DNA of 36,824 nucleotides from Candidatus Hydrogenedentota bacterium (GTDB lineage: Bacteria; Hydrogenedentota; Hydrogenedentia; Hydrogenedentales; JAEUWI01): the NCBI GenBank assembly GCA_016791475.1, contig JAEUWI010000067.1, positions 1 through 36,824 of the forward strand. The letters are read 5' to 3'. This document shows, piece by piece, positions 34,228 to 36,824 of this stretch (its first letter is position 1; each line of letters starts with the position of its first letter). A model generated the notes under the pieces. That model saw nothing but the letters and a program-made list of their open reading frames with translations, was not told the origin of the DNA and ran no database searches. The position numbers and the translations under genes are program-made.

Positions 34228-34318
34228 ACGAGGACGTCGCGGCGAAGGGTTGGGGAGATTTGGACCACGGCGACACGGAGGCGCGGAGAAAAAGGGGAGG
34301 ATTAAATCCAAGCTAATC

Positions 34319-34335
34319 CACCGGCTCTGCCGGTG
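34319..34335. repeat. Short perfect hairpin caccggc/gccggtg
   Basis: A 7-bp stem with a 3-nt loop. It resembles the longer hairpin at 34678-34698, which shares the CCACCGG/CCGGTGG core. Confidence 0.6.
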
Positions 34336-34448
34336 AGAATTCAACAGGCTCCGCCGTTCCGCCTTTACATTGGTCGCTGTGACAATGCGTGGGACATGAA
34401 TCGGGACGGGTTCCGCAGTATCAGCTCCGCAGGAGCGGCAGTCAGTAG

Positions 34449-34468
34449 CCCGGGGCGTAAGCCCCGGG
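34449..34468. repeat. Perfect hairpin cccggggc-gtaa-gccccggg
   Basis: An 8-bp GC stem with GTAA tetraloop, extendable by a G-T and an A-T pair. The motif resembles GC-rich dispersed repeats I recall from planctomycete-type genomes. No T-run. Confidence 0.65.
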
Positions 34469-34491
34469 TTGACGATCCGCAATTCGTTTGA

Positions 34492-34548
34492 ATCCGCGAA
34501 GCGGATGGCAGAGCAACACGACGCGAATCTGCCATCCGCTTCGCGGAT
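34492..34548. repeat. Perfect 21-bp inverted repeat
   Basis: 34492-34512 and 34528-34548 are exact reverse complements around a 15-nt loop. Each arm itself contains a small palindrome (atccgc-gaa-gcggat), so cruciform or clover-leaf forms are possible. Confidence 0.85.
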
Positions 34549-34677
34549 AGGTAACATTGCGGTCCTGAGTAGCAGGCCAGAAATCGAGTCGCGTGCTTCA
34601 CCCGGATGAACCCCATAGACCTTGGCGAGCGAAACGTTTACCTGGACTAACCGGCCCCTTTCAGGGACCTTCTTCAT

Positions 34678-34698
34678 ACCACCGGTTCTGCCGGTGGT
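34678..34698. repeat. Perfect hairpin accaccgg/ccggtggt
   Basis: An 8-bp stem with a 5-nt loop (ttctg). It shares its core with the hairpin at 34319-34335. Confidence 0.65.
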
Positions 34699-34749
34699 TA
34701 CTGATTGCACCGGCACCGAGTCATGATACGCGTACATTCGAAAAAAAGT

Positions 34750-35260
34750 GGTTCATCCGGTTTGAGCGTACGTTCTCCTTTGTGGCCAGCTCCGCAAGGA
34801 TTTGAAAGTACTTGCTTGACGAATGCGTTGGCCCCGGAGGGGCCGCGGAACTTAGCCCAGGGTGGAGCGAGGTACGAGCGGAACCCTGGGATCTCGATTG
34901 AAAGCGCACTCCAGCCCCCGAAGGGGGCGACGGAAACCACGCAAGAGGAATAATGATACATGCGATTGGGACACTTTCAAAGAGCCGCGCCAAGTAACGA
35001 GAATACTTCGCTTTGCCAAAATCTACGTCACCCCCTCCGGGGGTTTTAGACTATGGATATTCCAGATCCCAGGGTTCCGCTTAGGCTCCATTCGCCGCGG
35101 CGAACTAAGTTCCGCTGCCCCTCCGGGGCAAAGAGTGAAAATGAAATCCAATCACGCGTGGTGACTTGCTCTTGATGCAACTCCCTGACTCGCAAAGAAG
35201 CAAAGAATTCCGAGAGTATTTCCAGTCCGAACGAGAATGTACGCTCAAACCGGATGAACC
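34750..35260. repeat. 511-bp nested inverted repeat
   Basis: Outer arms: 34750-34777 and 35233-35260 are reverse complements at 27 of 28 positions. Inner arms: a 103-bp unit (34831-34933) and a 104-bp unit in the opposite orientation (35026-35129). The units share gccccggaggggc-x-gcggaacttag, then agcggaaccctgggatct, then a cccccg-x-aggggg-x-gacg end, separated by diverged stretches. No transposase or ORF is present. A third copy of the outer core CCGGATGAACC lies at 34602-34612. Confidence 0.82.
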
Positions 35261-35703
35261 GAAAAAGTCTTTCCAATTCCTCTCCCACTTATCTTCTCGG
35301 TGCCTTCGTGCACTCCCTGGTCCAACGGGATTCAACGCACGAAGAAGTAGAGGCAGCCACCTGTATTCAGGTGTGAAGGCGGACTCCATCGGCATCACCA
35401 GGAAAACTCGGATCACCCCGCATTGCCCCCCGAGTCTTTCCCAGGTCCTCGCGGTGGAGCGGGCCCTGGGGACGGACCCGCGCCGGGGCCCCTGGGCGGG
35501 TGGGGGTGGCTGAGGTGTCCGTCCGTGTCTCCAACGGGTCAAAGTGTTCGTCCGCGCGCGGGCCTGTCCCAAGGGATGTAACGCAGCGTCGCCTACGCGC
35601 CCCAAAGACTCCATGTCCCTATTGACGGAACGACCGCCCCCTGCTATCCTGAGTCAGCGGCCCGGTGGCCGTCCAGCAAAGGGGCTGGGGAAGGGGTATT
35701 GCA

Positions 35704-36824
35704 ATGGCAGATGTGGCATTCGCACCAACACACAGCTTCACCATGGACACCAACAAATCCGTCACGGCGAACTTCATTGCGGGCGTGAAGATCACGGTCA
35801 ACAAGAACGGCCAGGGCACGGTTTCTCCCGGCACGGGGGTCTATTTCGCCTCGGCGAATCTTCGACCCATGGGCGGGACGAAGACCTTCACCGCCACCCC
35901 GGCGTCGGGCTGGCGCTGGAGCCATTGGGAGGGCAACCTCGACGGCGCGGATGGCGGCGACCCCTCGCTGGACCTGCCTATGGACCAGGCGCGGACGATT
36001 ACGGCGGTGTTCGTCGAGCAGGTGACGCTGACGATGGTGAAGGAGCTCATCGGCAATCTCCCGGCGGAGGGCGGCTCGGTGTCCCCCGCCGTGGGCGAGA
36101 CGCTCCACGACAAGGATTCCGTGGTGAATCTCGTGGCCACGCCCGAAGTGGTCGCAGATCCGCCGCAGGCGGGCTGGCGCTTCAAGCAGTGGAGCGGTGC
36201 CGCCTCCGGGACCAACCCGAGCACGACGGTCACCATGAGCGGCGATAAGACCGTCACCGCCACCTTCATCCAGGTGCATACCGTGACCACCGAGGTGATC
36301 GAGCAGGGCGTCATCGAGCCCGAAGGCGGGACCTACGACCACGGCGCATCCCAGAGCTTCTTCTTCGACCGCCAGAACGGCCACCAGTTCCACCACTGGG
36401 CGGGCCTGCCCGATTCCTTCTCCACCCCCGCATGGGGCCCCGGCACCAGCACCAGCAACCCGGTCAACGTCACCATCGAGCAGAGCCTGCAGATCATCGG
36501 CTACGACGACGAAATCATCTACACCCTCACCGCCGATGTGGCCGCCGAGGGCTGCACGGGCTGTACCGTGGACCCGCCGGTAGCCGAATACATCGAGGGA
36601 ACCCCGGGCACCGTCACCGCCACCCCCGGCGAAGGCTGGGGCTTCGTCCGCTGGGAGGGCAACGTCCCTGCGGAGATGGTGGAAGACAACCCGCTGATCA
36701 TGCCGATGAACGGAGACAAGGCGGTGACGGCGGTGTTTGAAGAGGGTGGTGAAGGTGAAGGTGAAGGTGAAGGTGAAGGTGAAGGTGAAGGTGAAGGTGA
36801 AGGTGAAGGTGAAGGTGAAGGTGA
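35704..36824 (+). CDS. InlB-type repeat protein with Gly-Glu tract, runs off the window
   Basis: At least 373 residues are in frame with no stop before the window ends. The sequence consists of divergent InlB/Flg_new_2-like repeats, each with a TFTATPASGWRWSHWEG- or WRFKQWSG-type core and ending in KTVTATF-like strands; about four repeats are visible. From 36748 the frame enters a (Gly-Glu)n tract. AAGGGG at 35691-35696 is 7 nt before the ATG and an in-frame TGA at 35650-35652 bounds the frame. The protein lacks a signal peptide and begins in the middle of a repeat (HSFTMDTNKSVTANF), suggesting loss of its 5' part. Such proteins are usually secreted or surface-bound. Confidence 0.8.
   Translation, partial: MADVAFAPTHSFTMDTNKSVTANFIAGVKITVNKNGQGTVSPGTGVYFASANLRPMGGTKTFTATPASGWRWSHWEGNLDGADGGDPSLDLPMDQARTITAVFVEQVTLTMVKELIGNLPAEGGSVSPAVGETLHDKDSVVNLVATPEVVADPPQAGWRFKQWSGAASGTNPSTTVTMSGDKTVTATFIQVHTVTTEVIEQGVIEPEGGTYDHGASQSFFFDRQNGHQFHHWAGLPDSFSTPAWGPGTSTSNPVNVTIEQSLQIIGYDDEIIYTLTADVAAEGCTGCTVDPPVAEYIEGTPGTVTATPGEGWGFVRWEGNVPAEMVEDNPLIMPMNGDKAVTAVFEEGGEGEGEGEGEGEGEGEGEGEGEGEG
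36748..36824 (+). repeat. Hexanucleotide tandem repeat (GGTGAA)n encoding (Gly-Glu)n
   Basis: At least 12.8 perfect copies of the 6-bp unit run to the window edge. A 6-bp unit keeps the frame, so copy-number change alters only the length of the Gly-Glu linker. Confidence 0.97.

Follow-up and report, generated by a model that had tools for sequence, protein, structure and literature searches.

The locus and its surroundings

The element described here occupies positions 34750–35260 (511 bp) of a 36,824-nucleotide stretch of Candidatus Hydrogenedentota DNA (contig JAEUWI010000067.1), called the window below; the source genome (G000) comprises 7.7 Mb in 529 contigs. Longer ORFs lie on either side of the element, which itself contains no convincing gene: the ORFs across it overlap one another, appear spurious and reach about 100 aa or less, with no transposase gene among them. 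Downstream, an ORF at 35665–36822 contains repeated segments and a long Glu-Gly run at its end, which is also the end of the contig. Just upstream, at 34303–34709, stands a second dispersed repeat, which has CCACCGG...CCGGTGG palindromes close to its ends and encloses an Acido-Lenti-1 unit (34423–34468); copies of the repeat are found at C6, C2, C12 and C13 of G000, with many end pairs in genome G004.

The 511 bp are built from three nested pairs of arms, of which the outer arms are complementary over 94% of their 31 bp, the inner pair (34828–34855 with 35105–35132) over 93% and the innermost pair (34877–34897 with 35061–35081) over 95%. Alignment of the left half with the reverse complement of the right half gave a score of 57.5, the maximum over 300 dinucleotide-preserving shuffles being 26, and the nested inverted repeat that the initial annotation had placed here, with correct coordinates and arms, is far above chance. 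Its features are collected in Table 1.

Table 1. Features of the element and its immediate flanks, in window positions.
Feature	Position	Strand	Evidence or remark
Left target-site duplication, 8 bp, AAAAAAGT	34742..34749	.	7/8 identity with right flank; sister copies C14, C24 8/8
Left outer terminal inverted repeat, 31 bp, ISL3-type transposon end (most likely)	34750..34780	+	
Left three-hairpin unit: H1, TTAG foot, H2, spacer, H3	34828..34935	+	BLAST/nhmmer copies in own genome and congeners; DNA fold
Left-unit H1 hairpin GGCCCC-GGA-GGGGCC	34830..34844	+	DNA fold
Left-unit TTAG foot, immediately 5' of H2 (GTAG in related units)	34852..34855	+	TAG invariant, 48-unit alignment
Left-unit H2 hairpin CCCAGGGT...ACCCTGGG	34856..34890	+	Covariation
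Left-unit H3 hairpin GCCCCC-GAA-GGGGGC, then GACGGAA	34914..34928	+	Alignment, covariation, DNA fold
Right three-hairpin unit, opposed to left, H2 altered	35025..35132	-	
Right-unit H3 hairpin ACCCCC-GGA-GGGGGT	35030..35044	-	DNA fold
Right-unit surviving H2 arm (CCCTGGG on -, CCCAGGG on +), partner lost	35068..35074	-	
14-bp palindrome TTCGCCGCGGCGAA at expected position of H2 arm CCCAGGG	35091..35104	.	
Right-unit TTAG foot (CTAA on +)	35105..35108	-	
Right-unit H1 hairpin	35116..35130	-	DNA fold
Right outer terminal inverted repeat, 31 bp	35230..35260	-	
Right target-site duplication, 8 bp, GAAAAAGT	35261..35268	.	

Structure of the three-hairpin units

In each inner unit, about 104 bp long, H1 is joined to H2 by a linker whose last four bases are TTAG (or GTAG, in a sister family), and a variable spacer separates H2 from H3. 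Unit copies were gathered by nhmmer and BLAST and then aligned, the misaligned H1 of the CCAC-type units being left out of the counts, and throughout the 48 aligned units the foot is TTAG or GTAG. Pairing over H2, its inner helix and H3 together extends to 97.2% of the cells, as against at most 48.7% for slid partners, and changes on both sides of a pair were counted in 42 cells, compared with 9 in shuffles. For H2 alone the paired fraction rises to 99.7%, with both-side changes in four of its eight pairs and with CCCAGGGT/ACCCTGGG and CCTGGGGT/ACCCCAGG as alternates. This covariation argues that a single-strand structure has been maintained across the unit family. Inverted pairs of units are also met without any outer shell, at C18 and C32 and by the dozen in G004. 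Rfam microRNA models matched below cutoff and were rejected as chance matches to a long inverted repeat.

The initial annotation had described three conserved blocks, and the blocks are indeed hairpin-based, three within each unit, although a separate 31-bp transposon end lies outside the units. The pairing it had proposed for the left copy, CCCAGGGT (34856–34863) with ACCCTGGG (34883–34890), is borne out, and the compensatory-change test that it suggested gave the H2 figures above; an absence of pairing from other copies, which it had named as the damaging outcome, did not occur. Its wider statement, that structure is kept while sequence changes, holds for H2 over the 48 units but not for the palindrome of the right copy. 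There, as it had noticed, the arm adjoining the TTAG foot is swapped for TTCGCCGCGGCGAA and the opposite arm is left unpaired; this is not a compensatory change, since the long H2 hairpin is destroyed, the change is a single inherited event and TTCGCCGCGGCGAA has 19 genomic sites, several of them in other repeat contexts.

The TTCGCCGCGGCGAA palindrome

Exact TTCGCCGCGGCGAA sites number 19 in the source genome (11 in hairpin units, seven in GTGGAC/GTCCAC-type repeats and one elsewhere) and seven in the congener G003 (six of them in GTGGAC/GTCCAC-type arrays), with none in G004 or G005. In the arrays of G000 and G003 (L153, L154, L257–L263), which are built of GTGGACnnn or GTCCACnnn, the palindrome stands between GTGGA and TGGAC or between GTCCA and TCCAC. 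In the hairpin units that were compared it directly follows the foot, replacing either one CCC(A/T)GGG arm or the whole of H2. No mention of this palindrome was found in the papers searched.

Five copies related to the element at 34750–35260 have TTCGCCGCGGCGAA in common, which points to one inherited change in that family; to judge from these copies, the replacement in the right unit arose once, before the family spread. C31 (in each of its two units), C66/C4, C13 and C20 appear to represent additional replacement events, and at C29 another palindrome, TCCGCCGCAGGCGGA, occupies the same position after GTAG. Such recurrence in several lineages is what would be expected under the idea of the initial annotation, in which selection acts on an active exchange of hairpin modules; what counts would then be a foot followed by any hairpin, the stem being swapped. 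We consider this unlikely, because within the family of the element a single inherited change accounts for the palindrome, because H2 is lost when the right unit is folded as DNA, and because the presence of TTCGCCGCGGCGAA in GTGGACnnn arrays of G000 and G003 suggests that what is seen may be the spread of a sequence and not the retention of a structure. The replacement may have come about through joining at the foot by a Y1 enzyme or through template switching. A stronger form, in which the HUH/Y1 enzyme that recognises the units would cleave at the TTAG/GTAG foot and attach another short hairpin there, so that stems would pass physically from one repeat family to another and TTCGCCGCGGCGAA would serve as an interchangeable module, is in our estimation a long shot.

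Y1 transposase genes flanked by the units

At C5 of the source genome, convergent units (C5:120780–120887 and 121434–121542) flank a 150-aa IS200-like gene (120995–121336) whose product matches Pfam Y1_Tnp with 84 bits. The same unit-flanked layout recurs at G004 C330 (protein 82% identical), G004 C625, G005 C279, G005 C276 and G003 C4, and a relative with 37% identity lies between inverted H1-TTAG-H2-H3 units on a Persicobacter plasmid (Bacteroidota). The Y1 relative of a Bernardetia plasmid was found to have no flanking unit pair, and a search of viral contigs and phages for the Y1 protein returned nothing. G000 has another Y1 gene of the type described here at L159 (C66, 36300–38900); behind it comes a long series of hairpin units, among them three with the TTCGCC palindrome or a form of it that differs by one base.

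The proteins (about 150 aa) have Y1_Tnp as their only Pfam match and lack a C-terminal HTH domain; nine of them show the motifs D-H-V-H and Y---Q--HH. The NCBIfam model REP_Tyr_transpos gives 29 bits against a cutoff of 80; this score and the Y---Q--HH motif place the protein outside RAYT class 2. The Y---Q--HH motif defines Y1 subclass 1.2, which is described as occurring mostly in Cyanobacteria and Bacteroidetes, in few copies and as a rule with no typical terminal structures (PMC6006769); the proteins described here have the motif of this subclass but, unlike its description, their genes lie between hairpin units of which many dispersed copies exist. From this arrangement we infer that the convergent inner pair of the element is a REPIN-like doublet of IS200-like HUH/Y1 element ends.

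Relation to Acido-Lenti-1

The Rfam family Acido-Lenti-1 (RF01687) matches the minus strand of H1-TAG-H2. With 26.4 bits (E 0.0012) the left unit (34830–34890) falls short of the gathering cutoff, 37 bits, which the sister unit on the minus strand at 34423–34468 exceeds with 53.3 bits; related units in the window and in congeners reach 38–55 bits, and one unit of the Persicobacter plasmid scores 35.7 bits. RF01687 matches lie beside 9 of 13 Y1 loci of the subclass-1.2 type, often on both sides and convergent, and beside none of 16 further Y1 loci from these genomes; the line between the two groups, a Pfam score of at least 59.9 bits, was drawn once the hits were known. Fisher's test gives p = 7e-5, a figure that overstates independence because the genomes share ancestry.

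Acido-Lenti-1 was listed in its 2010 source only as a probable RNA (PMC2864571), a 2026 paper describes little as known of it, and it is still interpreted as possibly regulating protease genes (PMC13298647). One may ask whether the units are primarily structured RNAs, either Acido-Lenti-1 sRNA genes or 3'-UTR/terminator elements, that are repeated by happenstance; the scores above the gathering cutoff speak for this, and compensatory changes would suit RNA equally with single-stranded DNA. Happenstance sits poorly with units that converge around one type of Y1 gene and not others, and that are found inside MITEs, as doublets and in dozens of copies in G004, and we regard a primary role as RNA as rather improbable. 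That the units are minus-strand relatives of Acido-Lenti-1 makes transposon-end DNA the more likely identity of that family, and their placement suggests that Acido-Lenti-1 is a DNA hairpin end of Y1 elements and not a dedicated RNA gene; the units may also be transcribed.

Copies of the element and its outer shell

At least six copies of the element, itself included, are present in this genome, and the family is found across the genus. Full-length copies at C14, C8 and C24 are 89–91% identical to it, and those at C3 and C58 have diverged; outside their 31-bp arms and 8-bp duplications, the copies lie in unrelated sequence. The terminal repeats begin with GGTTCATCCGGTTTGAGCGTAC, and in the source genome the terminal-repeat family surrounds interiors of 248 to 636 bp. 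Target duplications of 8 bp are exact (8/8) at 20 elements from five genomes: three in the source genome (C14 ATTAAGAA, C24 CCAAAGAC, C12 ATCATTTC), ten in G003, where about a dozen elements of some 500 bp share the layout, five in G004 and one each in G069 and G070. Duplications of 7/8 accompany the element at 34750–35260 itself and those at C8, C20 and C7. The 20 exact cases include elements in two Planctomycetota genomes, with the duplications CCAATTGG and TCATTTAT. With up to three mismatches the end sequence occurs in 16 of 68 genomes of the phylum, and its reversed control almost nowhere. An orthologous empty site was sought and none was found, the flanks matching only repeats in congeners; viral contigs searched for the terminal inverted repeat, and plasmids searched for the L172 end, gave nothing. 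At L106 (G000 C58, 150–1100) two left ends (C58 238 and 415) precede a single right end (1021), apparently one MITE inserted within another.

HUH/Y1 transposition is not known to create target duplications. The exact 8-bp duplications at 20 elements therefore largely refute the view that the whole 511 bp are a REPIN or TIRtron spread by a Y1 transposase alone, with the 31-bp outer repeats as its longest ends. The inner units do flank Y1 genes, and inverted pairs do occur without the outer repeats, as this view would have it; yet the outer repeats surround quite different interiors and are absent from the Y1 locus at C5, so that we rate it as very unlikely. An assembly artefact, conceivable in a fragmented metagenome assembly of 529 contigs, is refuted by relatives in independently assembled genomes, and the copies lie on several contigs with differing flanks and target duplications.

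The transposase behind the shell

In two other genomes of the phylum, terminal repeats related to those of the element directly adjoin the ends of ISL3 transposases, which makes an ISL3-type MITE, mobilised in trans, the most likely identity of the outer shell. In G041 an ISL3 C-terminus (PF01610, 35.4 bits, E 1e-8) is immediately followed by the repeat GGTTCATCCGACTAGAGCGTAC, and in G020 a terminal repeat adjoins an ISL3-like C-terminus with a weak and short Pfam match (15.7 bits). These ends, which lie beside ISL3 transposase fragments, are related to the terminal repeats of the element at 19 of 22 bp, and the tie to its exact terminal-repeat family is a putative one. One end of the G020 element reads ...RRAYGFRDMEFFKLKILALHEAKIKLVG-stop and the other MSTHLLYHAFCIRGY..., which we take to be ISL3 transposase signatures (C-terminal and N-terminal, respectively), with weak Pfam support for the C-terminus only. 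Most of the twelve terminal-repeat matches in G020 (L386–L392) lie about 100 bp from a contig end, within a near-identical ISL3-type element, which suggests many recent copies there. ISL3 insertion creates 8-bp target duplications.

A search for a complete ISL3 element with exactly these terminal repeats found none. The only ISL3 trace found in the source genome is a 70-aa remnant (54.9 bits); this remnant, on C29, has no GGTTCATCC ends. Versions of 1.9 kb in G003 were considered as the autonomous transposon and rejected: three of the four were typed (L207 at 489–2349, L208 and L220; the insert of L222 was left out), and these are the MITE with an IS4-family insertion sequence in its hairpin, in both orientations and with an 11-bp duplication, GGGCAACGCCC. 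The hairpin of the MITE may be a hot spot for insertion.

Interpretation

We read the locus, with a probability of about 0.8, as a gene-less, non-autonomous ISL3-type MITE that holds a mirror-image pair of three-hairpin repeats, the unrelated mobile doublet of Y1 ends nested inside it, the reading of Acido-Lenti-1 given above being included in this estimate. An ISL3 transposase acting in trans would cut at the 31-bp ends and insert the 511-bp unit with an 8-bp duplication. A Y1 enzyme would recognise foot and hairpin on single-stranded DNA and spread the unit pair, which the MITE shell would then have captured; the H2 of the right copy would have been replaced once, and the altered form inherited by the copies of this MITE. 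The initial interpretation is upheld in part: the REP-type Y1 transposase that it proposed to look for elsewhere in the genome is present, with units on both its flanks, while the movement of the whole 511 bp as an ISL3-like MITE with 8-bp duplications had been missed.

The kinds of component, a MITE and REP-like Y1 repeats, are known, and in the literature compared the nested arrangement was not found described. Two chemically unrelated transposition systems would be stacked here, an ISL3-type shell around a single-strand hairpin doublet, and a REP-like repeat system would be added to Y1 subclass 1.2. The main yield is a testable re-reading of an Rfam family: Acido-Lenti-1, listed since 2010 as an sRNA whose function is unknown, can now be given a candidate identity.

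Comparison with known systems

The shell resembles ISL3 insertion sequences and MITEs in its terminal inverted repeats, its 8-bp duplication and the presence of related ends by ISL3 termini in G020 and G041; it is unlike them in that the element is non-coding and its interior is a foreign hairpin-unit doublet that differs between members. With REPs and REPINs and their RAYTs (Nunvar 2010, PMC2817692; Bertels 2011, PMC3116915) the inner units share a hairpin with a GTAG/TTAG foot, inverted doublets, extragenic dispersal and a repeat-flanked Y1 gene, whereas the unit here is a three-hairpin one of about 104 bp and the enzyme has the motif Y---Q--HH (subclass 1.2, PMC6006769) in place of the RAYT one. 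TIRtrons and TIRYTs (Di Nocera 2013, PMC3733652) likewise have long inverted repeats that flank a Y1 gene and are also dispersed as single and dimeric families, and their GGGGWSAS fits some H3 ends of the units, which read GGGGTGAC; most TIRYTs, however, belong to subclass 2.1 and have extra HTH domains (PMC6006769), in contrast to the proteins of about 150 aa with another Y motif found here. Acido-Lenti-1 (RF01687; Weinberg 2010, PMC2864571), finally, has two hairpins and a linker starting with CUA, as the minus strand of H1-TAG-H2 does, but it is filed as an sRNA of unknown function, whereas the units described here flank a Y1 gene, travel as MITE cargo and have a third hairpin beyond the Rfam model.
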